Source: Labia minor
Lineage: Eukaryota; Arthropoda; Insecta; Dermaptera; Spongiphoridae
NCBI GenBank assembly: GCA_963082975.1
Contig: OY720345.1
Span: 15,650,491 to 15,714,490, forward strand
Length of the DNA: 64,000 nt
Direction: 5' to 3'
The notes under the pieces were generated by a model. It worked only from the letters and a program-made list of their open reading frames with translations, was not told where the DNA came from and did not search any database. Numbering within the stretch: the stretch's first letter is position 1; the number at the start of each line of letters is the position of its first letter. Made by a program: the position numbers and the translations under genes. Of the stretch, positions 8,298 through 64,000 are shown piece after piece.

Positions 8298-9150
8298 AGA
8301 TTAATTAATGAATACAAATATAAAAATAATATAATATTGTTTCTAGTTCACTCTAATTATTTTCTTTATATATATATCAATGGACCTAATTATTATTATA
8401 ATTATTATATTTTAAAACTAGATAATATAAGTTTTCACTTCTTTAGTTCACAATTTTTTTGTTTATATTATTATAATATTTACTAACATCACGGAGGGTG
8501 TACATTCATAGTCAGTTCGATTTCTCTGTCTGCATATCACCATCTTAGCAATATTTGTTGAGCGTTTTTCCTTAGCAGGACTTACAAGACAACAAGGTGA
8601 CATTTTTATTTTTACATATTACTTCCTACAATTCCTATGTTTAATCACTTGTTTTTTATTTTCAAATTTTAAATATTATTTTAAAAATATTAAGAATTTA
8701 TTATATATTTTTTTTTATTAACAAAAGTGCGGTTTTTAGGTGGACAAAAAGAGTTAAAACGAACAATATTTTATACAAGGTAGAAAAATTAATTATTGCG
8801 TGGATTTTTCTTTTCAAAAAAATTAATCAGAATGCAATAGGAATTAAAAATATGTTAATAACACAATAATACCAAAGGAACTTTTCATAGAATAATTTTT
8901 GCAAAATGTTTCGTTTTTATTAATTTTTCTATTTTTGAATAAAATTATAAGTTGAATTAAGAGAGTATTTTTTAAAAATTTTTGTTCATTTTAAAAATAA
9001 GTCATTGAATAAAAGATATTTTTTTTATTTATTTGTAATATTTCAATTATATAGAAATTAATATTCTGACAAAATAGGATATACAGGCAATATTTTGATT
9101 AGATCATTGTTTTTATGGATCGTAACTCTATCGGGCAGTAGAAGATATTG
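6085..9150. other. Long AT desert
   Basis: No gene is supported. It contains a long (TA)n array (about 6427-6495), a (TTA)n run (6558-6582) and GTGTAT tracts (6790-6855). A degenerate repeat at about 7913-8050 shares TATGGAAATT and AATTATTAATTTTATATT and an ACATGGAGC block with 35102-35190. A further (TA)n lies at 8263-8290. Short frames here are A/T low complexity. Confidence 0.6.
7913..8050 (+). repeat. Unclassified dispersed repeat (family H), copy 1
   Basis: Similarity to 35102-35190 is limited but extends through two separated blocks. A downstream part (about 8104-8150) reads TTTTCATAGTAATCGGTTCAG, recalling the 'TTTCATCAAAATCGGTT' motif of family B. Class unknown; Helitron-like is only a guess. 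Confidence 0.3.
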
Positions 9151-9329
9151 TACGAGGAGAGGTCAATAAGTCCGTGACTTTTTGAATGAAACTCAGGTTT
9201 TTGGAGAAAAAATTATTTTATTTTTCAATGTGGTCTCCTTTGAGCGTTATACACTTCGTCCAACGTTTCTCCAATTTTTTTATCTCTTCCAAAAATAAGA
9301 TTTGTCGAGGACATCCTTGGTGTTGATTC

Positions 9330-9337
9330 TCCTAGAG
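9330..9337. repeat. Target-site duplication of the hAT element, left
   Basis: TCCTAGAG, identical to 12635-12642 on the other side of the element. Eight bases is the hAT hallmark length. Confidence 0.9.
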
Positions 9338-10082
9338 CAGTGGTTCTTAAACTGTGGTCCGCGGACCCCTGGGGGTCCGCGAAGCCTTTACTGGGGGTCC
9401 GCGGTCCTCGGAAAAAAATCATCGTAAAAATATATACATATATAAATATTTAAAGTTCATTGTTTAACTATATCCTCCTAGAGAATTACGGCTATAATTT
9501 AATACTATTAATAATACTATTTTATTTTATTAAATTGATAATTATGTCAATTAATTTTTTGTGAATAAATAAACATATATAAAAAACTATATATAAAATT
9601 TGAATTTTCATCCATTCATTCATTTAAAATCATTTTTCGATTGTTCCTTTAAAATAACCCCTCTTAGGGGCTCGGAAGGGGAGGCATATAAGGGAATTTT
9701 CTTTCACTTTGTTATTGGGGAAAACCAGGGGAGGGGACAGTCTTACCCGGAAAAACCCAAATTGTCAGCGTCCACTCTGGGGTTTTAAACAGTTTTAAAG
9801 CAAATGTTAATTATAAGTTCATTTCTCAACGAGTTGTATCTTTAAATTATTTTTATTAATGTTAATTATAAGTTCATTTCTCAACGAGTTGTATCTTTAA
9901 ATTATTTTTATTAATTTAATTAATTATAATTAAATTATAGCTAATAATAGTTTATTATAGCTAATAATTTTTTTTAATTTTTAGTGTAATTTGCATGATC
10001 ATTATTTTATAAAAACACTAAACACATTTTGCAATTTCCCAGAAAGGCTGTTTTTGAGAGTAAGTATAAGTTAGTTTTATGA

Positions 10083-10172
10083 ATAAAAAATATTTATTTT
10101 AATAATATTTTAGAATCAAATTACGAAATTAATAATATTTTAGAATCAAATTACGAAATATATTTATTATAT
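10083..10172 (+). repeat. Family F-like fragment, tandemly repeated, inside the hAT element
   Basis: AATAATATTTTAGAATCAAA followed by TTACGAAATATATTT occurs here, partly in two tandem copies. It closely matches 16300-16335 and, in part, 50505-50530, both in family F copies. It may be an old insertion carried by the hAT element or chance AT-rich similarity. Confidence 0.4.
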
Positions 10173-10388
10173 AAATTAATATTCATTTAAAATGATATTA
10201 AATCATTTATTTAAAATGATTTAAAACATTTATTAAAATGATTTAAAACATTCATTTAAAATGATATTAAAACATTCATTTAAAATCATATTAAAACATA
10301 GCTAGTAAATAATAATTCGTTATATTTATATTATATTTATATTATATTTATATTATTGTAGTTCAATGTTAATAAATTACTCCATAAA

Positions 10389-12248: not shown

Positions 12249-12634
12249 ATATGTAAGTTATATTTAATGAGATAAATGCAGTTATTTTTTAAAATATTTC
12301 TTATTTAATATTTTCTGAAAAAAATTATAAAATATTTATATGAATTTAATGTAAGTACCCATTATAATTTGTGAGATTTGTTGCTATGACAATGTTTGTA
12401 TTTTCTTTCTTCAATATTATAATTTCTAATAAAATGTGTTCTACAATATGCAAAAAAATCGTTATTCACCAATCACTGTTAGAAATATTCATCATATATC
12501 CTTGTCCTTATGAGATCGTAAGCCAGAAATTAATTAATAAAATGACGTAAAGTACCTAAAGTTGTGATGGGGGTCCGTCAAAAAAATTTTTTTCAAGTGG
12601 GGGTCCGTGGAGTACATAAGTTTAAGAACCTATG

Positions 12635-12642: not shown

Positions 12643-12946
12643 AAACCCATGATGGATCCACGTTTCATCCACGGTTACGAAACGGCCTCAAAAACTCGGT
12701 TTCAGTGATGTTTATTTTCCGCAACAAATAATGCTTCATGAGCACACGAAATTCACTTTTTTCTATTTTCTTCACAAATCACGAGGTAGTCTGCTATTAA
12801 TGGATGTTAAACAAAAACTAAAAGACCCAGCTGGTTCCAATTTCGACAGGATTCAGCTGATAGTTTCCTTCTGACAGGAGCAGTGTTGTCATTTCATTTA
12901 AGAGAGGAAATTCAAAAAGTCACGGACTTATTGACTTGCCCTCGTA

Positions 12947-18228: not shown

Positions 18229-19477
18229 CGACGGCAGGCCCGTAACTTTTGAAATTTCTTGTCTCTTAAATAAAATGGCAACACTTCTCCTGTCAGCAGG
18301 TAACTATCAGTTGACTCCTGTTGAAATTGGAACCAGTTGGGTCTTTTAGTTATTGTTTGATATCTATTAATAGCAGACTACCACGTGATTTGAGAAGAAA
18401 ATGGAATTAGCTGGAGTGTCTCCACTCGACTATCTCGCAATTTGAATTGGATTAAATAACATAATATATTATATTTAAATTAAATTTAATTAATTATAAA
18501 TTATAAATAATAAATATTAAACCAGCGCATGTTTGGCTTTTTATTGATGGCACCACGTCACGTGTTGGCGCGTGAGATTTGCAGTGTTAAAAAATTAATT
18601 TTGGTAATTTCAGCGAATCAATCAAGCTGAAATTCTATATATAGCAGTTTTATACAATTATTAATCATGTGAAAAATTATCAAACATATATCTTTATTTT
18701 TACGGTCACCTTAGAGGAAAAAAAATCAAAACGTTGTAGGTAATGACTCCCTTTTGATTGAGCTACATTTCTCAAAAGTTGATAGAAAACTATGAATTTT
18801 GAATAATGTCCATGTACCAAATTTCATCATTCTAGCTCAAACCGTTTTTGAGTAATCTTGTCTACATACATACACACACACATACACACATACACACACA
18901 CACACACACAGACATTTTTCTCAACCTTAGTGAAAATGATTCAGGAACCTTCAAAACGTATAAAAACATCAAAATCTCAACATCGAAAATTTTCGTGATC
19001 GCAATACTATCTCTGGCGAGATAGTAAAAAAGTGAATTTTTCGTGTGCTCATTAAGCATTATTTGTTGCGGAAAATAAACATCACTGAAACCGAGTTTTT
19101 GAGGCCGTTTCGTAACCGTGGATGAAACGTGGATCCACCAAAAAGTGAATTTCCATGAAAATACATGGATTGGGATACGAATTGGTCCTTCATCCGTCCT
19201 ATTCTCCGGATTTAGCCCTGAGTGACTATTTCTTATTTCCAAACCTGAAGAAATGGCTTGGCGTAAAGACATTTGACTCCAACTATGAAATCATCTCACA
19301 AATAAATCTATTTTCATATCCTCGACAAATCTTATTTTTTGGAATGGATAAAATAATTGGAGGAACGTTGGACGAAGTGTATAGAGCTCAAAGGAGACTA
19401 TGTTGAAAAATAAAATAATTCTTTATCCAAAAACCTGTGTTTCATTAAAAAAAGTCACGGACTTATTGATCTACCTT
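18229..19477 (+). mobile_element. mariner M2 copy, interrupted by a family A element
   Basis: The same family as 9153-12944, here in plus orientation. The right end reads AAAAAGTCACGGACTTATTG before TA at 19478-19479. The left end is degenerate (TA at 18227-18228). Transposase remains follow the A insertion: about 19115-19260 includes HPSYSPDLALSDYFLFPNLK, the DD34D third-aspartate region. The segment from 19350 gives the shifted C-terminus. Without the A insert about 630 bp of mariner remains, so it is a deleted, inactive copy. Confidence 0.85.
18407..19027 (+). mobile_element. Family A copy, subtype A1, complete, nested in mariner
   Basis: Starts TTAGCTGGAGTGTCTCC, then ACTATCTCGC. It contains the A1 block (GCATGTTTGGCT…GGCACCACGTCACGTGTTGG), the conserved body (…TTTATTTTTACGGTCAC…), a CA microsatellite (18868-18909) and the 3' stem-loop ACTATCTC-TGGC-GAGATAGT (19007-19025). 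The uninterrupted mariner sequence at 12740-12775 gives the empty site: an A6 run (T6 at 12757-12762) into which this element went without a clear duplication. The long minus-strand frame here is microsatellite-driven. Confidence 0.85.
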
Positions 19478-43258: not shown

Positions 43259-43497
43259 GACTTACGGTTTCCGAATGGAATACACCAAAAGTTGATGAAT
43301 TCATACTACTGATGAATTAAGTAACCAAATTTTATCAAAATCCGTTGAGCAGTTCAAGAAATACACTTCTATACGGACACACAATGAACAGATGGACAGA
43401 CGGAGAGACATCATGCTAAAAATACTTTTTTCTGTTAATAAAATGCATGATTCGTGAAGATATGTAAAAATCTCCACATGTGAAATTCGGTGTAAAA
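43259..43497 (+). mobile_element. Family B fragment (3' half)
   Basis: From CTTACGGTTTCCGAATGGAA through CCAAATTTTATCAAAATCCG, an eroded GGACACACAATG…GGACAGACGG array and TCTGTTAATAAAATGCATGA to GTGAAATTCGGTGTAAAAAA. The terminal CGTCGGTCGGT is missing. Confidence 0.75.
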
Positions 43498-43721
43498 AAA
43501 AAATTAAAAAAAGAAGATAATAAAAAATTTTCCAAATAACAAAATCATACGTCTTCATCTCGTTTTTGATTTATTTTATTAATCAATTAATATCTTATAA
43601 GTAAATCATTCAAATTAAAAAAAACAATTAAGCGTCCATGGAAATTTATTTATTATATCTTTCTCTTTCTTTTTGAATACTGAATTTTGCATTCTAAATT
43701 ATCAATTATTCAATTGATTTT

Positions 43722-45456: not shown

Positions 45457-45984
45457 GGTAATTGTTTACAAAACAGGAAGCTTCAGAGATTTGGATGAAA
45501 CTTTGCCAAAGGATTCCTTGTTTAATGCCAGAAAAAATTTTTTTATGCAATATTTCTTAGTCACTTCTAGTTTACGAGATAAAAATTGTTAAAATTTGCC
45601 TATATTGTAAATCCATTTATATTCTATTAGCTACCATATTTTATTCATTTGGCCAGCAGAGGGCTCCACTAATTTTCTTAGTTTTTTTTTCAGTTCGGTT
45701 TAGATATATGAAAATTAAAAAAATAATTAATTAAATAACCGAAAATAAACGAAAATAACCGAAATAGAAATAAATGAATAATTAGTGAATTAGCCAATAA
45801 CAAATTATTAAATATAGCTGCACATTCATAACTAGTTTATCTGTCAAACTAATAATTTTTATCTCGTAAACTAGAAGTGACCGATAAATATTGCATAAGA
45901 AGAGTTTTTCTGGAATTAAACAAGGAATCCTTTGGCAAAGTTTCATTCAAATCTCTGAAGCTTTCTGTTTTGTAAACAATTACC
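45457..45984. mobile_element. hAT-type MITE, family D, copy 2
   Basis: Ends GGTAATTGTTTACAAAACAG and, inverted, GGTAATTGTTTACAAAACAG; the inverted repeat continues for about 75 bp (GAAGCTTCAGAGATTTG…, …CAAAGGATTCCTTG). Flanks GATGTGAT (45449-45456) and GATGTGTT (45985-45992) make an 8-bp duplication with one change, which places the family in hAT. No coding capacity. Confidence 0.85.
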
Positions 45985-46996: not shown

Positions 46997-47044
46997 ACCT
47001 GTCATTTTCACTAAGGTTGAGAAAAATATTTCTGTATATGTATG

Positions 47045-47087
<43 letters not shown>

Positions 47088-47544
47088 ATGTAGACGAGAT
47101 TACGCAAAAACGGTTTGAGATAGAATAATGAAATTTTGTACAAGGGCATTATTCAAAATTCGTAGTTTTCTATCAACTTTTGAAAATGTAGCTCATTCGG
47201 GGGGAAGAGAACCATTTTTTTCCTCTAAACCGTAAAAATAAAGATATATGTTTGATAGCTTTTCACATGATTAAAAATTGTATAAAACTGATATATATAT
47301 AGAATTTCAGCTTGATTGGATCCCTGAAAGTGCCGGAATTCATTTTTTAACACTTTGACTGCAAATTACGCGCCAGCACGTGACTTAGTGTTATCAACAA
47401 AGATCCAAACACGCGCTGCTTTAATAAATATTATTTATTAATTTTAATTTATAATTTTGAATTAATTATATTTAATTTAAATATAATATAATATATTATT
47501 TAATCCAATTCAAATTTGTGACATGTCGAGTGGAGACACTCCAG
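46997..47544 (-). mobile_element. Family A copy, subtype A1, 3'-truncated
   Basis: On the minus strand the 5' end is CTGGAGTGTCTCCACTCGAC (with ATGTCACAAA instead of TATCTCGCAAA). The A1 block and body follow, then a TA/GT microsatellite (47041-47092). It breaks off at TTTTCACTAAGGTTGAG's inverse, without a stem-loop. It is joined through 47545-47820 to the next A copy. Confidence 0.8.
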
Positions 47545-47820
47545 CTTATTTTTAAATATTGTAATATTCACAATTTATACAAAAGAAATAATAAAGTGAT
47601 AATTATGATATTATATGTCTTTTAAATTTGGAAACACTGTCCTTTAGATTTATTTACTTTGTATTTTATTTCTTGATTTTTTTTTTTATTATTACCCTTA
47701 AAAGTTATACGTATATTTATAAATTCTATCAAATGTAAAATTAAACATAAATTAGCATATTGAGAGGCTTATTAATAATTAAATATTTATAATAAAGTAT
47801 TTATATTATATTTCGTATAT
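47545..47820 (-). repeat. Spacer shared, in permuted order, with the flanks of the A copy at 61110-61732
   Basis: On the minus strand 47820-47581 matches 61733-61968 (right flank there), and 47580-47545 (GTATAAATTGTGAATATTAC…AAAAATAAG) matches 61074-61109 (left flank there). Here the two pieces are fused and separate two A copies. Confidence 0.8.
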
Positions 47821-48410
47821 TTACTATTTTGCCAGATATAATATTGCGATCACTAAAATTTTCGATGTCGAGATTTTGATGTTTTTATAAGTTTTAAAGG
47901 TTCTTGAGTCATTATTTTTACTAAGGTTGAGAAAAGTGTCTATGTAAATGTAGACAAGATTACGGTTTGAGCTTGAATAATGAAATTTGGTATACAGGCA
48001 TTATTCACAATTTGTAGTTTTCTATCAACTTTTAAGAAATATATTGCTCAACCGGAAGGGGGCCATTACCTACCACGTTTTGATTTTTTTTCCTCTAAAG
48101 TGACCGTAATATTAAAGATATATGTTTGATAGTTTTCACATGATTTTAAATTGTATAAAACTGCTATATATAGAATTTCAGCTTGATTGAATCGCTAAAA
48201 GTACCGGAATTAATATTTTAACACGTTGACTGCAAATCACGCACCAGCACGTGATGTGGTGCCATCAACAAAGAGCCAAACACGTGCTGGTTTAATAAAT
48301 ATTATTTATTAATTTTTATTTATAATTTAATTAATTATATTTAATTTAAATATAATATATGTTATTTAATCCAATTCAAAATGCGAGATAGTCGAGTAGA
48401 GACACTCCAG
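47821..48410 (-). mobile_element. Family A copy, subtype A1
   Basis: On the minus strand it starts CTGGAGTGTCTCTACTCG, ACTATCTCGC. The A1 block is present, the microsatellite is nearly absent, and the end is degenerate (TATATCTGGCAAAATAGTAA). The same degenerate end is found in the copy ending at 61732, so the two share a recent ancestor. Confidence 0.82.
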
Positions 48411-48620
48411 ATTTTTTTTTTGTTCAAAGATTCAATATTTATAATTTTAGTTTAGATTATTTATTTTTTTAATCTGTATTCAATTAATATAAAAATATTA
48501 TAAAAATTAAATATTTTATTAAATAAATTGAGGTGATTGTTCTGTTTCAGAAGTCAGTTTAAAATTAAATTTCTACATATCTTTTTCAAATTATTGAAGG
48601 CAGTTAATATAATATAATCA

Positions 48621-48957
48621 TTACCTAAAACGTTTTGATTTTTTTTCCTTTAAAGTGACCGTAAAAATAAAGATATATGTTTGATAGTTTTTCACATAAT
48701 TAAAAATTGTATAAAACTGATATATATAGAATTTCAGCTTGATTAAATCACTGAAAGTACCGGAATAAATTTTTTAATGTATGATAATATATATAATACT
48801 ATATCTAATATATGATAATTAATTATTTTAATTGAATAATAATACTATCCTGTAAATTTATATCTTTTAATTAATTAATCCAATTCAATTATACTTAATT
48901 TATAATTTAATTAATTCAATTAAAATTTGCGAGATAGTCGAGTGGAGAAACTCCAGA
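48621..48957 (-). mobile_element. Family A copy, 3'-deleted
   Basis: On the minus strand: CTGGAGTTTCTCCACTCG, ACTATCTCGC, AT-rich A2-like centre, CAGCTTGATT…TATATAGAATTTC region, ending at CATTACC's inverse. It lacks microsatellite and stem-loop. Confidence 0.75.
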
Positions 48958-49460
48958 TTTTTTTATATCTTTTTTTTATTTTTTTATATTTATATCTTTA
49001 TTGATTTTTTTAAAAAAATCTCTAAGAGAGAGAGAGGCAAACACATTCTTTAAGAAACAAAAATAAAAATAAAATAAGGTAGCCTTGATTTATGACCCAC
49101 GTGTAGGTACTGATTGTCCTTTGACTTGTCACCCTTGTTATGCCCCCATACGGGGTGCAAGTTCAACTATTTCAATTCACCTAACATATCTTTTTTTACC
49201 CTAGTGTAAATTTTTCTTTTGATATTTGATAAAGTTTAGATAAGAAAAAAGGGAGGAGAGAGTGTGGGGACAGGAATAGTAGTTTTTATAAAATGCATTC
49301 AATAAGATAAAATTTTGGTTTAATGTTATTTAAACAGGGACTAGTAATTAATACGAATTTTATATTTTTTATTTATATTTTATATAAAAATATCGATGAA
49401 TAACTAATAATTTTTTTTTTGATGATCCAAACATTCAATTTTTAATCCAATAATAAAAAA
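48958..49460. other. Non-coding stretch with a GC-richer patch
   Basis: The interval 49078-49190 (…TGACCCACGTGTAGGTACTG…, GCCCCCATACGGGGTGC) is GC-richer; CCCC-ATAC-GGGG can fold. Not recognised. Confidence 0.4.
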
Positions 49461-50087
49461 TCTGGAGTGTCTCCACTCGACTATCTCGCAATTTGAATTT
49501 TATTAAATAACATATTATATTGTATTTAAATTAAATAAATTAATTAACTTATAAATTAAAATTAATAAATAATATTTATTAAACCAGCGCATGTTTGACT
49601 CTTTGTTGATGGCACCACGTCACGTGTTGGCGCGTGATATTTGCAGTGTTAAAAATTTAATTCTGGTACTTTCAGCGATTCAATCAAGCTGAAATTCTAT
49701 ATATAGCAGTTTTATACAATTATTAATCATGTGAAAAATTATCAAACATATATCTTTATTTTTACGGTCACTTTAGAAGAAAAAAAATCAAAACGTTGTA
49801 GGTAATGACCCTCTTCCGATTGAGCTACATTTCTCAAAAGTTTATAGAAAACTACGAATTTTGAATAATGCCCATGTACCAACTTTCATCATTCTAGCTC
49901 AAGCCCTTTTTGCGTAAACTTGGTTACATACATACATACACACACACATACATTTTTCTCAACCTTAATGAAAATGACATATTAATAATATATATTAATT
50001 TAAATTAATAATAAAAACGTATAAAAACATCAAAATCTCAACATCGAAAATTTTCGTGATCGCAATATTATCTCTGGCGAGATAGTA
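49461..50087 (+). mobile_element. Family A copy, subtype A1, complete
   Basis: Starts TCTGGAGTGTCTCCACTCG, ACTATCTCGC. A1 block, short (TACA)n/(CA)n array (49926-49951), end TATCTC-TGGC-GAGATAGT with one base of the stem altered. About 45 bp of AATAATATATATTAATTTAA-like sequence replace the CAGGAACCTTC segment. Confidence 0.82.
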
Positions 50088-50261
50088 AAAAAGCAAATTT
50101 ATAAAAGTTATATTCCTATTATATAATTAATTATAATATTATAAGTATTATTTAATTTAATAAGATAATATGAATATTCTTAATCTTTCTCTGATATAGG
50201 TATTTATTTAACATTTAAAAAATTAAACGATATTTTAAATAAAAACAATAATTTATTATTT

Positions 50262-50640
50262 CTTATCTTATTATACTAGCAAAAATTGTATATCTATATT
50301 TGTATTTTTGAAATATTAAATCGCTAGAAGGATTTTTATGAAATTCACACCATAGATAATTTTTATAAAGAAAAATCGATCTGTATTGGTTTCAGCCTCG
50401 GGAAAAATCTATATTAGTTTTTTCTTAATTTAAAATAGGAAATTTAAATGACGTCAGCAACTACTTCAGACGGTGCTTCCTTAAATACAAATAAAATATA
50501 AATCAAATCAAATTACGAAATATATTTTCTGTTATAACCACAGACCATACTTTTCTGTCTTTCACTGCATTAATATGTACGTTTAAGGGTTATATGTTTT
50601 ATGACTATTTTTGTTTTAAATTAAATTGAAATTACCAGCC
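50262..50640 (-). repeat. Family F dispersed repeat, copy 3
   Basis: Colinear with 16026-16430: TTATACTAGCAAAAATTGTA, AAATCGCTAGAAGGATTTTT, GCCTCGGGAAAAATC, GACGTCAGCAAC, CCATACTTTTCTGTCTTTCA. Its centre has the B-like TTAGTTTTTTCTTAATTTAA and a GACGTCA. Confidence 0.55.
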
Positions 50641-50858
50641 ACACAAACCCGATAACAAGAAATAATTGTTTTTTAATGATGAACCAGATACTATTATATT
50701 ATATGCATAACTCATATTAAATAATTAATTAATATATGATTGTCAATTTGATCTATTATATCACTGTATTTATAAATTATATTTTTGAAAATTTTACTTA
50801 TTTACCCTTTAAAAGAATATTAATATTCTATTAGCTAATCGCTAAATTGGAAAATTAG

Positions 50859-50899
<41 letters not shown>

Positions 50900-51419
50900 T
50901 GTATATATATTTACTATATTATGACTCAGTGAGGGCTATCCCATATATATAATGTCCCTAGATGAAATATGAAACGTGTTTTTGTAGAAATTATAGATTA
51001 TCGTAAGAGGATGGTTAAGAAATAGATATATTATGAAAACCTATTCAAAATATTGGATAATTAAGAATGTATCTAAACTGTTTAACATAAGAATATCTAC
51101 CTATCTATGAAGTGGGAATGCTTGGATATTTTTTGAGTTTTAATTTATGATAGGCTGAATGACCGCCCAGCGGTTTAGTAGAGGCAATTCTTTCTTTTTC
51201 TCTCTCGCTCGCTTACTTCGTCTTGAAATTAATTTCTTGAAAAAGCACACCGGAATAATTAAGGGTTTGACGGAACAAGACAAACAGGATTTTCTAAGAT
51301 TTCACCGGGATCTCACACCTATTTAATTATTTTCCAACATTCGACTCTAAGAGAGAATTTAAGCGGTTTTCCAAGAATATATTTCAAATTAATTTATTGT
51401 AATTGAACGAGGTTTTAGA

Positions 51420-51463
<44 letters not shown>

Positions 51464-52255
51464 AAGAGTCTGTGTGTGAAATATGGATTAAATTTAATCA
51501 AACGTCATTCAAAAAATATAATTGCACAATATATATATAAAGATTTAAGATATGGCACAGTGAATTTGAAATTGATTTAATACTAACACAGTACGGACAT
51601 TAATTCTATTTCTTTTTTTTTTTGACAAAAGAAACGATGTCGAAGAGCGGGGGGGGGGGGGAGTGAAGAGGGAGTGCTAAGAAATAATAATGAAAATTAG
51701 CGTAACACATCTGCCAAAATGTGATTTCAAGAAAATATATATATATATATATATAAAATAAATAACTTTTGATGGTTATCATTGTGCTTTTGTGTACAAA
51801 AACATATGCGCCATCACATAACTTTTCAAACTAGTTGAGATTGCTTATCAATAAGGACAAACGGTTTTTCAGAAAAAAGAATTGCATTATTTGTTGAGAT
51901 GTTGCTTGTTTGTTTGTTAGTTTGCTTGTTTAACATCCAGGAAACTTTGTTCTCAATCATTTTTCACAAAAATAGATAAATTTAGTTTTTATATATATAT
52001 ATTTGAAAAGAAATCACCATTTTTGTAAATCTAAGGATTTTTTTTACAAATCTATATATCTAATCTGATTATGATCTGATCTGAATTGTATAGTGACATT
52101 TTTGTATATTCCACCTAAGTAAGTAATTATATTGTTTTGTCTTTTAATTTTTGAAAATATTCCTTAGAATTTAATAAAATTTGCATATATATTAGGGGAT
52201 TAAAGAATCAAGATTTTTGTTTTGTTTTAATTTTTTAATTATTAATTTTAAAAAA
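50641..52255. other. Non-coding stretch, microsatellites and one patch
   Basis: (TA)n at 50863-50895 and 51424-51461, and a G14 run at 51648-51661. The interval 51150-51330 (…GACCGCCCAGCGGTTTAG…, …TCACCGGGATCTCACACC…) is GC-richer and not identified. Confidence 0.5.
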
Positions 52256-53086
52256 TCTGGAATGTCTCCACTCAAAATTGAATTAGAACAATTAAATTAT
52301 AAATTAAGTATAATTAAATTGTGGATTAATTAATTAATTATTAATTAAAAAATAAATAAATGTACAGTATAGTATTGTGATTCAATTAAATTAACTAATT
52401 AACACATATACTTATTAAATTTAAATTTAAAACCTTTACCTTTATTTTTAAGTCAAAATTCAAAAAAATAATTCCGCTACTTAATAAAGCTGAAATTCAA
52501 TATATAGCAGTTTTATACAATTTTTAAATATCAAACATATACCTATCTTTATTTTTACGGTCACTTTAGAGCATAGGTTCCCAACCTTTTTTTTAGACCC
52601 CTTGCCATGTTTTTCGGTTTTGGTTAGACCTCATAAATTGATTTTGATTTTTTATAAAATAATTTTACCCTTTTTTTTAGAGCCTTATTGAAAATTCAAT
52701 AATGTTTTAAGAGCCCCATGTCGGAAAAGAATTTACCTTTTTTAGAGCCGGGAAAACACGTAGACCCCCATAGACCCCCATTTCCATTTCAAGGACCCCT
52801 AAATTTGTTTTTCGCTGCCATGCACCCCTTGGAGGTTGAAATAGACCGCCAGGAGTTTATATAGACCACTTTGGGAACCTATGGTTTAGAGGAAAAAAAA
52901 TGAAAACGTGGTAGGTAATGGTCCTCTACCGAATGAACAACATTTCTCAAAAGTTGAGGGAAAATTACGAATTTTAAATAATATCCTTGTACCAAATTTC
53001 TCAATCTTATTGAAAATGACTCAGGGACCTTCAAAACGTATAAAAACATAAAAATCTCGATATCGAAAATTTTCGTGAGATAGTAA
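52256..53086 (+). mobile_element. Family A copy, subtype A2, interrupted by a hAT-type MITE
   Basis: Starts TCTGGAATGTCTCCACTC; the ACTATCTCGC block is lost. A2 centre (TTTAAAACCTTTACCTTTAT). The ACGGTCACTTTAGAG segment is split by the MITE at 52572-52883. The end is GTGAGATAGTAA with the stem-loop reduced and no CA array. Confidence 0.78.
52572..52883. mobile_element. hAT-type MITE nested in family A
   Basis: 312 bp. Ends CATAGGTTCCCAACC and, inverted, CATAGGTTCCCAAAG. Flanking duplication CTTTAGAG (52564-52571) / GTTTAGAG (52884-52891). Repeated GACCCCC phrases inside. Its termini resemble the right end of the intact hAT at 12634 (CATAGGTTC), so that transposase or a relative might have moved it. 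Confidence 0.85.
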
Positions 53087-53231
53087 AACTAATTAATATC
53101 AAATGAAATGATACACTGTAACAAAAATTTTAGATTTTGAAAAACATATTATATATATCATAAAAATGAATATTAAAAATTAAAAATATTATTAAATTAT
53201 ATATATATATAGGATGTGTGCTCTTTGAACA

Positions 53232-53440
53232 ATAATCTCTTTATATTTCTTTAATGAATATTCATTTGTGTTAATAATAATTAAACAGAAACATTAACAT
53301 CTTATTTCAAACTAAAATATTTAATAAACATATAATTCTAATAATTTCATTAAAATTAATTATAATGATTATACTTACTTTAAGAATAAATAAATGAATA
53401 TAAATTTGTAAATGATATTGAATGATTAGCTAGAAATTAT
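53232..53440 (+). repeat. Dispersed repeat (family G), copy 2
   Basis: Colinear with 17098-17240, best in GAAACATTAACATCTTATTT. Origin unknown. Confidence 0.55.
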
Positions 53441-53822
53441 ATAAAAATTCATAACTACTTATATTTTAATAATTCTTTGAAATTGTTAGAATTATACTCG
53501 AATTATTCTGTTTTGTCGGACGAGTTCAAATAGTTTCTTTGAACCGAGATAGAGACATCAAATGAAATATACCAATTGTATATATGCATACTTATACCTA
53601 TATTTAAAGTACCGAGAGACTTAATTAAACAGATACTGGTAAATTATAAATTATAAAATGTTAAATTAAATATTATGAAGTATATTATTATAATTAAAAA
53701 TATTTATTTTCATTATAATGAAATGTTTTATAAAAATATTATAATAATTTTTAAATTTAATTATTTAAATATCTAAATAAGTTTTCCACATATATAAAAA
53801 GTGTTTTGGTAAATTTATATTT

Positions 53823-53853
<31 letters not shown>

Positions 53854-53878
53854 ATCCATAATCACTGTGTCTTTAACC

Positions 53879-53950
53879 CAGTGATTCTCAACCACTGTGC
53901 CGCGGCACTTTTGTGTACCGCGAGATTTTCAAAATGTTCTGCCAAATTTT
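53879..53950 (+). mobile_element. Left end of a hAT-type element
   Basis: CAGTGATTCTCAACCACTGT then GCCGCGGCACTTTTGTGTAC is the familiar hAT terminus form (…TGTGCCGCGGCACAC…). I could not find a matching right end, so the extent is unknown. The 69-codon frame across it is not meaningful. Confidence 0.6.
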
Positions 53951-54239
53951 ACAAATGTAAAGATCAAATTAACAAAAAGTACTTATTTATTTTATATGTA
54001 TGTAAAAAAAGATAAAATGTTTTTGCGATAAGGCTCTTAAACATTTCCGACTTTTTTCTAAATAGCACCAAGTGTTATTGATTATTGAAAAATGATTTTG
54101 AAATAAACAGTGTTTTTACATAATTTATTGTCAAATTCATTGAATCGAAATTATAGAAATTTTAGAGAAGATATAAGAGCTGGCAGATGGGTGCAAAACT
54201 AGTTGGGCTCCCCAGGAAATGGTCCTTACGTTTTCAAAG

Positions 54240-54430
54240 TAAATGGACCATAAGTGCCAACAATTTCAAAATAAAAATTAAAGAAAACTCCACTCAAGGC
54301 AGATTACTAAAAAATGATCATTGGTATACGAAAAATATTGTTTTCAAAGAACTATTTAATTAATTGCTGGACCGATTCTTATGAAATTTTTTATGCATAT
54401 TCAGTAGGTATTTTATTATCAAACCGCTAA
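54240..54430 (+). pseudogene. Helitron C-terminal and 3' UTR-like fragment
   Basis: TKNIVFKELFN followed by a stop (about 54328-54363) matches the end of Helitron helicases as I remember it (…KTKNIVYKEVL). Downstream, GCTGGACCGATTCTTATGAA + ATTTTT (about 54367-54392) recalls the usual post-coding sequence of insect Helitrons. Only a fragment; no complete gene. Confidence 0.45.
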
Positions 54431-54899
54431 TTGGTAAGGTGTGTCGAAGGGGGGGGGGTATTTTTTAAGTATTATATATTTTTTTTACAAATTTATTAAT
54501 TTTTATTATTTTAATATTTTATTAAATTATTTTATTTTATTTTATTAAATTAAATTGTATTAAATTATTTTATTTTATTAAATTAAATTGTATTAAATTA
54601 TTTTATTTTATTAAATTAATAATTATGTCAATTAATTTTTTGTGCATAAAGAAACATATATAAAAAACTATATATAAAATTTGAATTTTCATTCATTCAT
54701 TCATATAAAGCAAATTGGCCGTTAAAAGGATATGTTAGCCTGTGAGATCATATAAATAATTCATCTAAATTTACAAATTATATAAAAATATATAATTAAA
54801 AAATTGTGTAAATTTCAGTGAATAGAAAGAAATTTAATATGATATGTTCAAAGAAAATATGTAAAAAAAATTTCATTACAATCATTACTGTTAATAGCA

Positions 54900-55268
54900 T
54901 TTTGTAATAATCTATTTTCAAATAAATATGTCACATACAACATTATTCTTTTCATCTAGACATGCAAATTCCAAAACTACAAAGAAAAAATTATAAAATT
55001 TTCAGTTAAGTGAAAAATTATTTATTTGGAGATAAGACCAACATTTCAGCAATTTTCTGAATTCGTAATTTGAACCCGCCATGGCTGTGCAACGGAGCGC
55101 GATTAGTCATTAAAAATTTTTTGAAAAACTTTATCGAAGCAACCTTTTTAAATGGCAAGTGTCGATGTGAAAAGATATCAATACCACGAATAACTATTAT
55201 ACCCACTAGAAATTCTCTAGAAATTATTTACATGGCAAAACAACGTTTTGCCGGGTCAGCTATAATAA
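54900..55268 (+). mobile_element. Canonical Helitron relic: helicase fragment fused to 3' terminus
   Basis: From about 55068 one frame reads MNPPWLCNGARLVIKNFLKN then FIEATFLNGKCRCEKISIPR and ITIIPT, a good match to the Pif1-like helicase C-terminal part of Helitron Rep-helicase proteins (…NPPKLCNGTRL…IEATILTGK…IPRIPLIP). Shortly after comes the perfect stem-loop GGCAAAAC-AAC-GTTTTGCC (55231-55251), followed by GGGTCAGCTAT, close to the CTRR Helitron 3' end. Rep domain and most of the helicase are absent, so it is a non-autonomous or decayed copy. Confidence 0.7.
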
Positions 55269-55389
55269 TATATAATTAATTTACTGATTAAATTAAAATA
55301 TATTTTACAAGAAACCAAATAAATGTCTTATCTACTTATACTGATTGATACAAAATGGATGAAAACCTTTTACATACACACTTTTTACC

Positions 55390-55548
55390 AAAAACTATGT
55401 ATCACTCGGGGGTACAGGGGGCGGAGGTGTTGAGAGCCCCGAAGGCGCTCGGAGCAGCTAGTTGTTATATAAAATTCTTTAAATTTGGCAACCCGGAAAA
55501 TTTTTCTCGAGTCCCCTCTGGGAGACGCGACCCACGGGTTGCGCACCA
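55390..55548. mobile_element. Right end of a hAT-type element
   Basis: GACGCGACCCACGGGTTGCG followed by CACCACTCG is an inverted hAT terminus (CGAGTGGTGCGCAACCCGTG…). The preceding GC-rich block from 55390 (CGGGGGTACAGGGGGCGGAG…) probably belongs to it. The left partner is not identified; 53879 differs in its subterminal motif. Confidence 0.5.
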
Positions 55549-55559
55549 CTCGTCTAGTC

Positions 55560-57155
55560 TATTAATAGTTATAAAAATAACTTTATATTATTTTCACTGT
55601 CCTATTTATTTAATAATCTAATACAGTTAAAATAAATTCAATCCAATCCAATTAAAATGGGAATTATTCATATTTTAGTCATAATCCTTTTTGAAAAAAT
55701 AATCTTCATATTTCTTTTTCTTTTCTTTTATCAACTTAAAGTTATATGAAGATATTTTCTTCCATCACCTTTTCAATGTCTTAACTAATTGGACAAGATT
55801 CTTTTAAAGATTAATTTATTAAAATAAATGAAAAATTGAAGCTATTTTAAAATGCAAATTCTTTTGACTGTGAATATAATATACTATATATTAATTTATA
55901 TATAAAAAAAAAAAAAAAAAAAAAAATTAACTGAAAGAAATAAATTCAAAATAAATCATTCTTTGACAGAATAGTTAAAAGAGAAATGGATTTTTTTTTT
56001 GTTTTTGTATTAGTTCACATAAATTTTTAATTTTGATAATAATTTTCAAATTTCTAATTTAAGTATTCGTAGTTGGAGATAAGAAAATTAATAATTCCTT
56101 TACATCCACACACACAGACACACACACTTCATTTTCAACTAAATTGAAATGAATAGACTGAATACGTTATAAGTGTTAAAATAAATAAACATTTGAAATG
56201 CATTAGTCATTTACGGTTGTTCTTGTGTCTCATAAATAATCCCTTTAAAACAATTACATCAGAACTAAACAATTTTACACCTGGCTTAAGGTAAATAAAT
56301 AAAACACAGCGAGAATGAACCTTCCATTCTCTACCCCCTCCCCCCTCCCCCCCCCCCCTCCTCCCCTAAATAAGAAATTGACAGGTTTTTCGTTCTTAAC
56401 CGCACACACGACTATCCAACCGACCGGCCAATAATTAACAACCTAACACAGTACTCGCTCGTGACATAAGCCCTCCATTCATCACCAGTTGATGATAATT
56501 TCATACTTAAATAATGATAAGGCAGAAATTATCTTATTAGCAACGATATTTGTTTTATTTTCTTTAAAAAAATCCAAGATTTAAAATCTTAATTAACAAA
56601 TAAAAATAATTGTAGATAATTTTTTTTTTTTTTTTTTTTTTTAATAGTAACGATTAATGGCCTTGCAGAGAAGGACATTAAGTGATATTATATATATATA
56701 TATATCCATCTCTTAAAATGGACATCTCATTCAAATAATATGAAAAGAGAGAGACCTAAAGGCGTTGAGAGAAGGAGGCGGGGGGGGGAGGGGGGTGAGT
56801 GTGAGGAAGCTGGGAACTTGGACCCGAGACGCTCTCACAATGAAAAATAACGGAGATTTGCAACAAGAAGCAGAAAATAACGTCAATATCGTTCAATTTT
56901 CGAAATGTTCTCACAAATGCTCGTTTAAAAGAAATTAAAAAGTTTGGTGTCAGATAAAATGATTGAAAAAAAAAAAAAAACTAAACAAAATCGTTTCAGT
57001 GACATTTTATCCATTAAGATTAGATTTCTTCAAAAACAACGGACCATTAGTCAAAAAATATTCATTTATTAACATCGTTCACTCATTTTTTTTTCTCTTT
57101 TAAAGTATCATAATAATAAAGTATATTTAAGTCTGAATTTAAAAATATTATTAAA
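55560..57155. other. Non-coding stretch with homopolymer and purine tracts
   Basis: A-run of about 20 (55907-55927), (CA)n at 56107-56128, C-rich tract 56335-56366, T-run 56622-56642, and G-rich 56777-56800. A modest GC-richer interval at 56395-56480 (CGACTATCCAACCGACCGGC…) is not identified. Confidence 0.5.
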
Positions 57156-57990
57156 AAATCTGTTGTGTCTCCACTCGAGTATCTCGCAAATTTGAATTGG
57201 ATAATCAAGCTTTTTTTCTATATTTGAAAATTAATTAAAATTTTATTCTATCCGATCATAGGATTTAAGATTTTTAATATAATTTTCACTGATAACATTT
57301 CATTGAAATAAAAAGGCAATCAAATAATATCAACATTGTTTTGATTTTTTTCAACGTAAATAAAATACGGTTGTGACGTGGTAAATCATAGTCTAACCTA
57401 AGCTAAAGATAGATCTTAATATTAAAATTAATTTAATTAAAATTAAAATTAATTTAATTAAAATTAAAATTAAAATTAATTTAATTAAAATTAAAATTAA
57501 AATTAATTTAATTAAAATTAAAATTAATTTAATTAAAATTAAAATTAAAATTAATTTAATTAAAATTAAAATTAATTTAATTAAAATTAAAATTAATTTA
57601 ATTAAATTTAATTAAAATTTATGCTAAATTTAAAACCTTACCTTCATATTTAAATTAAAATTTAAAAATTAATTAACTTTCAATAGTGATTCAATTGAAG
57701 TTGAGATTCTATATATAGCAGTATTATACAATTTTTAATCATGTGAAAAACTATCAAACATACCGTATATCTTTATTTTTACGTTTAGGGGGGAAAAATG
57801 AAAACCTGGTAGGTAATGGTCCTCTTCCGGTTGAGCTAAATTTCTCAAAAGTTGATAGAAAACTACGAATTTTGAATAATGCTCGTGTACTAAATTTCAT
57901 TATTCTAGCTCAAACCGTTTTTGCGTAATCTTGACTACACACGCACACACACAGAGGGAGAGAGAGAGAGAGATTTTTTCAGAGATAGTA
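57156..57990 (+). mobile_element. Family A copy, subtype A2, with AT minisatellite
   Basis: Starts TCTGTTGTGTCTCCACTCGA, GTATCTCGC, and ends CAGAGATAGTAA. Unrelated or heavily diverged DNA follows the first 45 bp. The AT spacer has expanded into a tandem array (57415-57625). The microsatellite is CA then (GA)n (57930-57972). A2-type centre. Confidence 0.75.
57415..57625 (+). repeat. AT minisatellite (AATTTAATTAAAATTAAAATT units)
   Basis: About ten tandem units of 15-27 bases that differ by the number of AAAATT steps (AATTTAATTAAAATTAAAAT and variants). It lies inside the family A spacer. Confidence 0.85.
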
Positions 57991-58491
57991 AAAATCAAAT
58001 TATATTATTGGAACAAAAAAAATTTTGAGCTCAAATTTAATAAACCTTTACCTTGATTTTCTTAAACGGAGACGCTACTTTTTTTATCAAGAAGCTTCAC
58101 TATCGTATAGGATTACAGAATTGACAAGAGTTTTGGTCGTACGTTCCTTTGATCCTCCTTATTCTGAGGGGGATCTCCTTTTAAATTAAATATTAAACTG
58201 GAATAATAGCAAAGACACTTTAATTATATTTCTTATTTTTTTTCCTTTCGATGATAATCAAACTGTGAACAGAGGAGAGTAGAAAGAAAGAAAAAATTCT
58301 CACAGAAGACATAATTTGAACATTTTTATCTATTTATAATGGAACAAGATAAAAAGAGAGAAAGAGACAGAGAGAGTAACAACTCTCATTTAAGATAGCA
58401 TTAGGATTAAATTCATAGACATTAATTAATGGAAGATGTCAATATTTTTCTGACTTTTTTTTTTGTCGGCCTAAACTCTTAAGTTTGAAAT
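57991..58491. other. Non-coding stretch, nothing recognised
   Basis: Includes GAAAGAAAGAAAAA and AGAGAGAAAGAGACAGAGAG purine tracts and a moderately GC-richer part at 58060-58180. No gene supported. Confidence 0.45.
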
Positions 58492-58509
58492 TTGTTCATC
58501 AGACAAATT

Positions 58510-58692
58510 AAATATATAAATCACCACCAAATGGCATGTATCTTGCGGGCATTCGATTCGATTAGCAACGGTAGGCAGTCGTTCCTCGGCACGGAGAACG
58601 ATTTCCCGCCTCGTTGGCCACGGCTATTAATGGCGAAGACAACGCCAGTAACACCCGGGCCCCTCTTGTTTCCTTCCAAATTTATATATTGA
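58510..58692. other. GC-rich island, possible exon or conserved element
   Basis: Open on both strands. Plus: MACILRAFDSISNGRQSFLG, then TENDFPPRWPRLLMAKTTPV…, ending at 58692. Minus: GPGVTGVVFAINSRGQRGGK, then SFSVPRNDCLPLLIESNARK…, ending at 58509. No repeat partner in the window. A donor-like ACG|GTAGGC is at 58569. Neither product is recognised, and GC-rich DNA stays open by chance, so I do not assign a gene. Confidence 0.3.
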
Positions 58693-59036
58693 TGTTGTCA
58701 CTTGGGACTATGTTTCTCTCTTTCACTCCCACTTCTCTTTTCTTCTTCTTCTTCCTCTTCTTCTTCAATGGCATTTCAGGAATTTTAAATAAAACTACTA
58801 ATCGACAAAATTCATTTTTTAAATTATATTTTATTATTATGGATTAAAATGTAAGGGGATAAGAGAAAGACATAGTAGACAAACATGGAGAAATCAGAAA
58901 TTGTGAAAACCCCTTTGTTAATCAGTAATATCTTTTGAAATTTTAGTAAAATTAATAATAATGATTAAAAAAATATTATAAATTTTGAATTATTTTGATT
59001 TAAATATATTTATGTTTATATACACGCACACACGAG

Positions 59037-59345
59037 GGTTATTTTTCAACATGATCACCCTCTACAGTTATTTTCTTTTTCCCACCTTTCTTGCAGCTTC
59101 CTAAGCTGACCCCGTCATAAGCTTAAAAAATTGGGTTGGGAGATCTTACTTCATCCTGCCTACAGCCCGGACCTCGCCCCATCTGATTTTTACCTATTTG
59201 GACCACTCAAAGACGCCCTACGTAGAAAAATATTTGCTAACAATATTTTTACACACTAACAATGACGAAGTTAAGGAAGAGGTGTAAAAGTGGTTTCGAA
59301 AGATTTCTTCGCCAAAGAAATTAGGAAGCTGCAAAAAATCAATTA
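59037..59345. pseudogene. mariner M3 relic in foldback arrangement
   Basis: Plus strand from about 59133: LGWEILLHPAYSPDLAPSDF then YLFGPLKDALRRKIF, the third catalytic region of a DD34D mariner, later EIRKLQK (59317-59339). The adjacent 59037-59108 is the same protein's C-terminus on the minus strand (RKLQERWEK…, GDHVEK-like). The copy is thus partly inverted on itself and lacks its N-terminal two thirds. A different mariner family from M1 and M2. Confidence 0.72.
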
Positions 59346-59367
59346 ATTATATATTGGGACTTCATTT

Positions 59368-59787
59368 GATAATTGTTTACAAAACGGGAAGCTTCAGGTA
59401 TTTGGATGAAACTTTGCCAGTGGATTCTTTTGTTATTTCGAAAGAAACTTTCCTTATTCAATATTTCTATTATATATCTCTTCTAGTTTAGGGGATAAAA
59501 ATTATTAAAATTTGCATATAAATCCATTGATATTCTATTTAGCTACCATGTTACATTCGTTTGCAGCAGAGGGCACCACTAGTTTTGTTTTGTTTTTTTT
59601 TTCGGTTCGGTTTGGATATATGGAACCGAAAATTTGTGAATAAGTGAATAATTAGTGAATTAATCAATAAAACATTAAATAATGGGTGCACATTTCGACG
59701 TTCATAAGTAGCTAATCTGTCAAATAGGAATCCTCTGGGAAAGTTTCATTCAAATCCCTGAAGCTTCCCGTTTTGTAAACAATTACC
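59368..59787. mobile_element. hAT-type MITE, family D, copy 3
   Basis: Ends GATAATTGTTTACAAAACGG and, inverted, GGTAATTGTTTACAAAACGG. Flanks CTTCATTT (59360-59367) / TTTCATTT (59788-59795) are an 8-bp duplication with one change. The inner arm on the right is partly deleted relative to 45457-45984. Confidence 0.85.
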
Positions 59788-61073
59788 TTTCATTTTAATT
59801 TTTGAATATATTTTATTCAATGAAACGATATTTAATTTTAATTTATATAAACTTAGTCAAATTCTTAATTTCTATAGCGATTTGTTATTTTTTTAACATA
59901 TTTAGTGATATAATATAATTAATTACTATTTTGATTAAATATTTATTATAATTGTTAGAAGGTGTATTTATTTTTTCACATCGTATGGTTCTTGAAAAAA
60001 ACATTTCCCACCACTCTTTAACTGATTTATTAGATAATCTATGCACTACATTATAAAATATTATATACTTAATTATTCAAAGTAGAGTTGTTAGCTAATA
60101 TGTCTCATAATGGAGATATAAGTATATAGATTTCTATATTATCTAATTTGAAAAATCAAAATTTTTATTATTATAATTATTATTACATTCATAATAATTC
60201 TTCTGTTATTAATATTATTTTTAAAATTCAGTTTAAATAATAAAATGTGTCTTGTGTCAAATTTTTTTTTCAATAAGAAAAATTGTAAATCTCATAAATA
60301 TCCAAAATGCAAAATTCTCTTGATAATATATGGAATGACATTGACAAAAGAAAAAAAAAGGCAACGGTGTTTCAATTTATGTCCCTATGACAATATCCAA
60401 ATAAGCATTTCTACTTTATGTTCTCGTAAATTATATGGATGGGTTTAGTCTCACCGTTCGAGTTGTGGTGTTCCTTAGAATTTCCATCAACGAAATAAAT
60501 TTATATTCTATTCCGTATGTTGTAATATACACACGAATGGTAAAATATGATAGTAATCATCGATTAATTACTACTCAAGACTCATTATGTATAAATATAA
60601 ATATGATTATAAAACATTTATAATTATAGTATACGTTAAGAAAATTAATTATATAAAATAAAAAAAAATTAAATAATAATAATAATTATTATTATTAAAA
60701 TTGAGTATAGGAACATAATTTAATTATTTATGGTAAAATGTTTATAAAAACAATTTTGATTTGGGTAATTTGCAAGATATGTAGAAATTTTTTTTTTTTA
60801 ACTTTTTAACTTTATTTATTTTATCAATTACAATTTTAATCAATTTTATGCTATTTACAAAAAGTTACTATTTTGCAAAAGAATACTTATTTTTCTACAT
60901 TTTATTATTTAAGTCTAAAAAGTTCATTTTTTGTTATTTAAATTTATAGTATAAAGTTTTACTATTTATAATTAATTTTTATAAAATTGTATATAAAATT
61001 TATAAAATACTATTTCGATAGAGGAGGCATTAGATAAATTAAAAAAAATGCTTTTTTGTTTATTTGATCAATT
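59788..61073. other. AT desert
   Basis: The frames at 60245-60448 and 60435-60623 show no recognisable domain and are A/T-driven. No RNA gene seen. Confidence 0.5.
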
Positions 61074-61109
61074 GTATAAATTGTGAATATTACACTATTT
61101 AAAAATAAG
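61074..61109 (+). repeat. Left flank block L, shared with 47545-47580
   Basis: GTATAAATTGTGAATATTAC…AAAAATAAG, one mismatch to the inverted copy at 47580-47545, up to the first base of the family A element in both places. Confidence 0.8.
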
Positions 61110-61732
61110 CCGGAGTGTCTCCTCTCGACTATCTCGCAAATTTGTATTGGATTAAATAACATATTTTATATTATATTTAAATTAAATATAATTAATTAAA
61201 TTATATTTTAAAATTAATAAATAATATTTATTAATCCAGCGCGTGTTTGGCTCTTTGTTGATGGCACTACGTAACGTGCTGGCGCGTGATTTGCAGTCAA
61301 CTTGTTAAAAAATTAATTCCGGTACTTTTAGCGATTCAATCAAGCTGAAATTCTATATATAGCAGTTTTATACAATTTAAAATCATGTGAAAAACTATCA
61401 AACATATATCTTTAATATTACGGTCACTTTAGAGGAAAAAAAATCAAAACGTGGTAGGTAATGACCCTCTTCCGGTTGAGCTACATTTCTTAAAAGTTGA
61501 TAGAAAACTACAAATTGTGAATAATGCCTGTATACCAAATTTCATTATTCAAGCTCAAATCGTTTTTGCGTACTCTTGTCTACATACATACCCACAAACA
61601 AATATACACACACAGAGACATTTTTCTCAATCTTAGTGAAAATGACTCAGGAACCTTCAAAACTTATAAAAACATCAAAATCTCGACATCGAAAATTTTC
61701 GAGATCACAATACTATATCTGGCAAAATAGTA
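61110..61732 (+). mobile_element. Family A copy, subtype A1
   Basis: Starts CCGGAGTGTCTCCTCTCG, ACTATCTCGC. A1 block with altered CACTACGTAACGTGCTGG, body, short microsatellite (61582-61618), degenerate end TATATCTGGCAAAATAGTAA as in 47821-48410. The overlapping short frames at 61451-61767 come from this element, not a gene. Confidence 0.83.
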
Positions 61733-61968
61733 AATATACGAAATATATTATAAATACTTTATTATAAGTATTTAATTATTAATAATATGCTAATTTATGT
61801 TTAATTTTACCTTTGATAGAATTTCTAAATATACGTATAATTGTATTTAAACTTTAAAGGGTGATAATAAAAAAAAAAGAAATAAAATACAAAGTAAATA
61901 AATCTAAAGGACAGTGTTTCCAAATATAAAAGATATAATATCATAATTATCACTTTATTATTTCTTTT
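61733..61968 (+). repeat. Right flank block R, shared with 47581-47820
   Basis: AATATACGAAATATA… through AGGACAGTGTTTCCAAAT to CTTTATTATTTCTTTT. It matches the inverted copy at 47820-47581 with small indels and stops abruptly at TTTCTTTT. Confidence 0.8.
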
Positions 61969-63374: not shown

Positions 63375-64000
63375 AATAAGTTGACCTGTGGCCAGGTACC
63401 AACCGACCGACGGTTTGAAGTAAATTAATTTCCAGCTACAGAAACAATTTCAAATAATTTTAATATATCTATTAATGTAATAAAAAACAGATATGGATAC
63501 ATAAATAATAAATATAAACATTTTTAATTTTATTTTATTTATAATATATATGCAAGACCAGGCTGTGACGTCATGAATGGCTGGATTACGTCATATAATT
63601 TTAAATCAAGAAAAAACTAATAAATATGATTTTTCTCGAGGATAAAATCAATACAAAGTGCATGATTCGTGGTGATATATAAAAAAATCTCCTCATGTGA
63701 AATTTGGTGTGAAAATAACCCTTCCCTTCCTATCGTCGATCGCTAATACTACCACTTCCGGTTTCCGGATTTGCACCAAAAGTTGATCAATTCCCACTGA
63801 TGCATTAAGTAAATATACCAAATTTCATCAAAATCGGTTGAGCCGTTCAGGCTGTACACATCTATACGGACGGACGGACAGACGGACAGACTTCATGCTA
63901 AAAATACTTTTTTCTGTTAAGAAAATGCATGATTCGTGGAGATATGTAAAAATCTCCACATGTGAAATTTGATGTGAAAACAATACCTCCTTTACTATCG
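63375..64000 (+). mobile_element. Family B copy B6, cut by the window end
   Basis: Starts AATAAGTTGACCTGTGGCC, with ACCGACCGACGG. Body, (ACGG/ACAG) array at 63868-63890, TCTGTTAAGAAAATGCATGA, and up to CCTTTACTATCG, where the window ends about a dozen bases before the expected CGGTCGGTAAAAA. Confidence 0.85.

Follow-up and report, generated by a model that had tools for sequence, protein, structure and literature searches.

How do the two flanks of one transposon copy come to stand in rotated order at a second locus? The question is raised by a 64,000-nucleotide stretch of the genome of Labia minor (Insecta, Dermaptera; assembly GCA_963082975.1, contig OY720345.1, positions 15,650,491 to 15,714,490), here called the window, in which copies of a dispersed element, family A, carry the same flanking blocks, L and R, at two loci 13 kb apart. 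Rotated flanks around an element of rolling-circle type look as if transposition had passed through a circular intermediate. The mosaic make-up of one element and the position of the joints appear to point instead to repair by copying from a repeat, and the likeliest cause is a repair event between copies of the transposon, of a kind already known.

On the plus strand at 61072–61968 (locus 61) the order of blocks is L-A-R. The left flank L (61072–61109) comprises 38 bp, including a TT common to it and the end of R. It is followed by A61 (61110–61734), a full-length copy of the family and the proposed donor, and by the right flank R (61735–61968); U lies to the left of L and V to the right of R, so that the whole reads U-L-A61-R-V. 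On the minus strand at 48410–47001 (locus 48) the order is A1-R-L-A2, with R joined straight to L. A1 (47820–48410) is a mosaic A copy. The R duplicate (47581–47819), defined by alignment with R61, lies between A1 and L; the L duplicate (47545–47582), defined by alignment with L61, is fused to R and abuts A2 (47001–47544). In A61 coordinates, which are used below to name the 5' and 3' parts of all copies, A2 is truncated at the 3' end, with the last ~90 bp missing, and most of its body is not close to A61. The further partial copy A3 (48618–48968, minus), just upstream of A1 and in the same orientation as A1 and A2, makes locus 48 an A cluster. The A copies of the two loci are mutually inverted. 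Both orders and the direct fusion of R to L had been described in the initial annotation, and are upheld here with refined coordinates.

Blocks so arranged could be dispersed repeats in unrelated orders, the outcome that the initial annotation had named as fatal to its interpretation. A search of the 604-Mb genome with R gave two candidates, both inside the window, and a query spanning the R–L joint matched the joint, R61 and L61 only. Dispersed repeats are ruled out by these counts of two places and one. L alone is too short as a query; in longer L-plus-A queries, L61 and L48 are mutually the best match among the best 40 of thousands of candidates. Other matches cover at most part of L, and the four edges inspected (L074–L077) were judged, by eye only, to be AT-rich similarity. 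No further clear copy of L was found with the L-plus-A and joint queries. R61 and R48 differ by substitution at 7 of 223 aligned sites and by four gap runs in a pairwise alignment; L61 and L48 differ at one of 38 sites, the last ~9 of which form the AAAAATAAG edge common in family A. Since R is confined to two genome places and L has no other clear copy in these searches, the circular permutation is real, local and beyond chance. Two independent insertions of A into the same L site, or a chance likeness of L, would suit the shortness of L and the near-family-level divergence of the A2 and A61 bodies. Against this, L matches at 37 of 38 positions beside an A edge and adjoins R at one of the loci, and R itself is a clear duplicate; such an origin is very improbable. 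U found itself and six weak matches of 71–82% in the genome, and V itself and one weak match. The initial annotation had proposed comparing the locus 61 breakpoints with an empty site; genome searches with U and V yielded no paralogous one, so that the flanks do not reveal which locus was copied from which.

Family A is very abundant and dispersed: queries that contained the greater part of A gave 8,738 to 12,590 first-pass candidates, and 40 were scored per query. The family alignment comprises A61, A1, A2 and 59 other copies, namely those spanning A among the top-scoring matches, and is not a random sample. Microsatellite columns 61588–61616 were excluded from distances and rare-state counts; A2, whose homology ends at 61646, was excluded from the 3' tree; and one row (L020_458, which is copy L048_3038 again) was omitted from the trees while being counted among the 59. 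A rare shared state is one common to a pair and present in at most three of the other copies. A second count, used for locus L056 below, admits states in at most four of the 59 copies, the L056 pair itself included.

A61 and A1 differ at 18 of 222 sites in 61101–61328 (8.1%) and at 16 of 368 in 61329–61734, the latter distributed as 0/111 in 61329–61440, 7/139 in 61441–61587 and 9/118 in 61617–61734; the median differences of other family A pairs are 8.2% in the 5' part and 9.4% in the 3' part. Eight rare states are common to A61 and A1 in the 3' part, and one in the 5' part, which A2 also carries. A61 has 0–2 rare 3' states in common with each of the 59 others, and among 1711 other pairs eight are reached by two, the L056 pair and a pair that is really one copy entered twice. 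In the 3' tree A61 and A1 are sisters (support 100/99); the 5' tree groups A1 with another copy, L054 (97/81). The best breakpoint falls between 61311 and 61379, with shared derived sites at 1 of 16 positions to its left and 13 of 28 to its right. Downstream of ~61311–61379, by these states and this tree, the 3' part of A1 and A61 are of one descent.

The 5' parts tell a different story. A61 and A2 differ there at 21 of 225 sites (9.3%) and A1 and A2 at 23 of 221 (10.4%); by this measure all three differ about as unrelated family members do. A1 and A2 are read as separate residents because of this mutual divergence, and their origin as one duplicated unit is not supported. Decay of an ordinary tandem array alone, the second explanation offered at the outset, does not fit 5' parts so unlike copies of one unit. 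Were all of the 5' part of A2 derived from A61, a divergence of ~4% would be predicted; the observed 21/225 compares with 23/591 for the A 3' part and R together (Fisher p 0.005). On the simplest reading of these sequences, A1 and A2 would have been distinct elements already resident at 48 kb, while A61 would have supplied the 3' part of A1, R, L and an edge of A2.

The arrangement at 48 kb may accordingly be described as a break repaired with A61 as donor, by homologous recombination with a non-canonical end-joining termination, a reading to which we give a probability of roughly 0.45. The steps would be as follows. (i) Locus 48 would suffer a double-strand break or gap, either within one of two resident A copies of like orientation or in the DNA between them. 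(ii) Both broken ends would take the ectopic A61, inverted and 13 kb away, as template. (iii) The end in the A1 precursor would enter A61 between 61311 and 61379 and copy rightward through A61 into R. (iv) The other end, at the A2 edge, would copy outward through the left edge of A61 into L. (v) The released ends, being without homology, would be joined by the 2-bp TT microhomology, yielding A1-R-L-A2. One repair event and one illegitimate joint would suffice, and locus 61 would be left unchanged. What we infer is that a break occurred, that A61 was the donor, that it was invaded twice and that the former spacer at 48 kb was lost. Homologous repair that runs past the homology and is ended by microhomology joining has been documented in mammalian cells, in a paper on long-tract gene conversion that also refers to work in Drosophila (PMC5104497). 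The likeness lies in homology that starts the copying, a tract that exceeds it and a joint of short microhomology. Unlike in the mammalian reporter cells of that account, the event proposed here would be an old one between dispersed transposon copies, and both donor flanks would be joined together.

Several observations weigh against this repair from A61. Tree tests on the 5' part reject neither A61 with A2 nor A61 with A1 (p-AU 0.43 and 0.41; range 0.26–0.43), and the permutation p for the A61/A1 breakpoint is only 0.066 after correction. A61 and A2 have three rare states in common in 61101–61328, where A61 and any of the 59 have 0–1, and three rare 5' states are reached by only two of the 1711 other pairs. 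With L included, A2 is the best non-self match of A61 and vice versa, among the best 40 of thousands of candidates. Some of the 5' body of A2 may thus come from A61. In one consensus tree of the 5' part the two group with support 43, a grouping absent from the careful tree. In the 3' part, A1 and A2 have two rare states in common (61468, 61658), which are put down to poor alignment of A2 there. That A1 and A2 had residents as precursors, and that A61 acted as donor, is a reconstruction and not an observation, and the product would be no different had the template been a circle. Other sources for the 5' parts were considered. No close gene-conversion donor for that of A61 or A2 appears among the best 40 of thousands of candidates per query (next-best 92% and 90%), nor does one lie within the window, where A61 is nearest to A1 (8.1%) and A1 has its nearest neighbour in the partial copy 4066–4228 (6.2%). 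A subfamily origin of the odd segment of A2 was not seen in the fetched loci.

Copying of flanks beside A copies can be looked for elsewhere. The comparison set consists of 64 non-window loci (226 kb) chosen for their high scores against three A queries, and hence not random; some of them overlap (L020 and L048), and nine loci lying in the window were excluded. With A masked, self-comparison gave 31 matches in 20 loci, all of which were checked. In two of the 64 loci, L018 and L056, a pair of A copies carries one and the same flank at corresponding ends. In L056 (C10:63632.1-63633.7 kb), two A copies stand in a row within 706–2269 in the order A-R-L-A-R. These copies (706–1280 and 1497–2085) have a 3' flank of 155 bp in common at 98.7%, and likeness between their bodies is confined to the last part, with 2 of 118 mismatches and eight rare states there against 55 of 450 and none upstream. 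In L018 (C10:67464-67466 kb), a 5' flank of 165 bp is common, at 97.6%, to an A copy and a second one that is partial and diverged (1388–2144 and 2861–3343). Genome searches with these flanks placed that of L018 at two sites and that of L056 at two sites plus one weak match of 77%. A switch of ancestry inside the repeat that runs on into the donor flank is thus seen in A1 and A61, and more sharply in the L056 pair. These one-sided cases fit copy-out repair; with only about 0.8 kb (L056) and 1.2 kb (L018) between the copies, ordinary local duplication may also account for them. In L058, two inverted pieces lie around one A fragment, part of another repeat also present in L037. This 634-nt repeat (L037 715–1338 and L058 2686–3314; 94.6%) ends beside an A fragment in both, and is probably another dispersed repeat holding or adjoining A pieces.

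The joints bear on how the rotated order arose. Three are novel: U–L at 61071/61072, R–V at 61968/61969 and R–L at 47582/47581. None coincides with an A terminus, the outer joints of locus 61 lying 38 bp beyond one end of A61 and 234 bp beyond the other, and the L–A and A–R joints are identical in both loci. The R–L joint, ..TTTCTTTTGTATAA.., is a 2-bp overlap in which the TTTT at the end of R and the TT at the start of L provide the same two bases. In an AT-rich genome (the window has 26% GC), 2 bp of microhomology is weak evidence for microhomology joining. Comparable features are known from circular-DNA-mediated segmental duplication pairs (cSDPs) in human, where rotated order and microhomology joints are taken as the sign of a circular intermediate, and from the cattle colour-sidedness translocations, quoted in the same source for 2-bp microhomology at the circle joint (both PMC7450558). 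The change from L-A-R to A-R-L-A is of the cSDP type (A-B/C-D to B-A/D-C) between duplicated loci, and as at the cattle circle joint a 2-bp microhomology lies where the block ends meet. The present case is unlike the cSDPs as described there in its size (~0.9 kb against >20 kb) and in the homologous repeat at its entry point, which makes the A sides of its joints homologous, where a cSDP would be expected to have microhomology or short indels only.

A small circle could be envisaged, in which L-A61-R (~0.9 kb) was closed through TT and entered the 48-kb A copies by homology or, in reverse, a circle formed between A1 and A2 was opened between R and L at 61 kb. The exact unit-length permutation, the 2-bp overlap, the published sign in human and the three rare states common to A61 and A2 all agree with it. 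A single crossover would, however, place the 5' part of A2 ~4% from A61, not the 9.3% observed, and the one-sided flank copies of L056 and L018 are not expected from circle integration. Judged by a criterion of our own, not drawn from the cSDP paper, one descent does not extend across the whole unit: in its 5' part A61 is further from both A1 and A2 than the ~4% seen in R and in the 3' part of A. We regard this route as unlikely, though as the strongest competitor. Marginally behind it, and likewise unlikely, is a tandem duplication of L-A-R at 61 kb through the TT joint, from which the inner A-R-L unit would have passed to the inverted 48-kb A copy by recombination, for example by two successive inversions. 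Inverted A copies 13 kb apart suit this route; worked through on paper, a pair of inversions converts P-A0(-)-I-LARLAR-V to the order seen here, and L056 offers a row of A-R-L-A-R. Three events would be required, the ~4% prediction for A2 fails as before, and a tandem remnant looked for at 61 kb was not seen. Both routes end in the same final order as the favoured repair, and both stay candidates because direction and intermediates are invisible in one genome. The circular or tandem [A+R+L] intermediate put forward in the initial annotation is thus retained only in part: the permutation it was meant to explain is real and the intermediate is still conceivable, while the mosaic and the joints favour copy-out repair from A61.

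The remaining candidate, transposition, depends on what family A is. Its ends read ..AAAAATAAGCTGGAGTGTCTCCACTCGACTATCTCGC and ..AATACTATCTCTGGCGAGATAGTAAAAA in the alignment of the 59 copies with A61, A1 and A2, and are fixed by a repeat found with and without an A insertion (window 18240–19140 against 12650–12925). The inserted copy lies at 18406–19033 on the plus strand; its paralogous empty site, 12752–12761 in the uninserted relative, is an A-run (a T-run on the other strand), and no target-site duplication is seen. On the reverse strand, the subterminal inverted repeats are ACTATCTCGCCAGAGATAGT, a few bases inside one end, and GCGAGATAGT, again ~20–30 bp from the other. They are ~10 bp long, and the one close to the predicted 5' end is palindromic (fold z -3.2). 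The L-side end carries the palindrome GAGTGGAGACACTC in the alignment, with a single-strand fold no better than shuffles (z -0.95, 36/200). Subterminal inverted repeats, a putative second short palindrome, a central microsatellite, an A/T-run target and the missing target-site duplication are the grounds on which family A resembles a HINE, that is, a non-autonomous Helentron-like element. In published HINEs the subterminal repeat begins or ends within 2–4 nt of the 5' terminus and the 3' region carries a palindrome, and in mite families the repeats are 12–15 bp long and lie 38–60 bp from the 3' end (PMC4067079). Family A is like HINE/DINE-1 elements, as that source presents them, in its inverted repeats, internal microsatellite and, at one empty site, T-rich target without duplication, and may be like them in its end palindrome. 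It is unlike the mite families in that its repeats are shorter and nearer the 3' end. In the two Helitron loci inspected (L078 and L079) no autonomous partner with the ends of A was found; the A copies in their vicinity stand at varying distances and seem to have inserted separately. The genome does contain Helitron-type Rep genes (104 matches, 103 above the family cut-off, some with neighbours in frame). Equally scoring Rep fragments are clustered at G000:C5:46739897-46792979 with spacings of 9.8 kb and 5.7 kb, apparently as a tandem array.

Inferred from the published HINE layout, the 3' end of family A is probably on the L side. What had been called a degenerate 3' stem-loop would then sit at the 5' end of the element. 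That both A copies beside R carry it is confirmed: A61 and A1 have changes in common at 61717, 61724 and 61726, and folding as single-stranded DNA gives -8.6 kcal/mol for the family consensus, -4.7 for A61 and -0.3 for A1. Common descent accounts for the weakening in both copies. Rolling-circle transposition of A, reading through the failed stem-loop by way of a circular intermediate, would draw on the HINE-like structure, on the Rep genes and on PMC4067079, which offers rolling-circle movement as a possible cause of HINE clusters and gene duplicates. It would put an outer joint at an A terminus, however, whereas U–L, R–V and R–L all lie outside A; integration of a read-through circle is expected to give A-R-L, not L-A-R; and A61 and A1 differ in their 5' parts. 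With no new joint at an A terminus and the stem-loop probably 5', this proposal of the initial annotation finds no support, and we consider it the least probable of all those weighed. Nor is the A1-R-L-A2 rearrangement itself explained as a product of HINE/DINE-1 transposition. No description of a flank rearrangement of this type in HINEs was found in a limited search of the literature.

Further features of the window may be recorded. An open frame of 619 amino acids at 10389–12248 on the plus strand has a weak match to the hAT dimerisation domain (19.5 bits; cut-off 21.4). A 135-nt inverted repeat (45457–45591 and 45850–45984) is 93% complementary, with 258 nt between its arms, and a 114-nt direct repeat (43388–43501 and 63870–63983) is 91% identical over a distance of 20 kb. 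An AT-only, minisatellite-like array with steps of about 21–27 nt (57427–57617) adjoins a partial A copy.

Beyond the single case, copies of family A might serve as frequent homology landing pads, such that repair is initiated within one copy and extends beyond the end of another. This generalization is doubtful at present. If true, 100–250 bp pieces of single-copy flank would be repeatedly duplicated, and the pairing of flank to element end would be rewired. Flank capture would then mimic transposon read-through without any transposition, two-sided in the focal pair and one-sided in L056 and L018. If such events happen often where genomes are dense in repeats, some of the 'flank capture' that has been ascribed to read-through of Helitron-like elements may consist of repair scars, and a mosaic element together with a duplicated flank would offer a simple criterion for separating repair scars from read-through.

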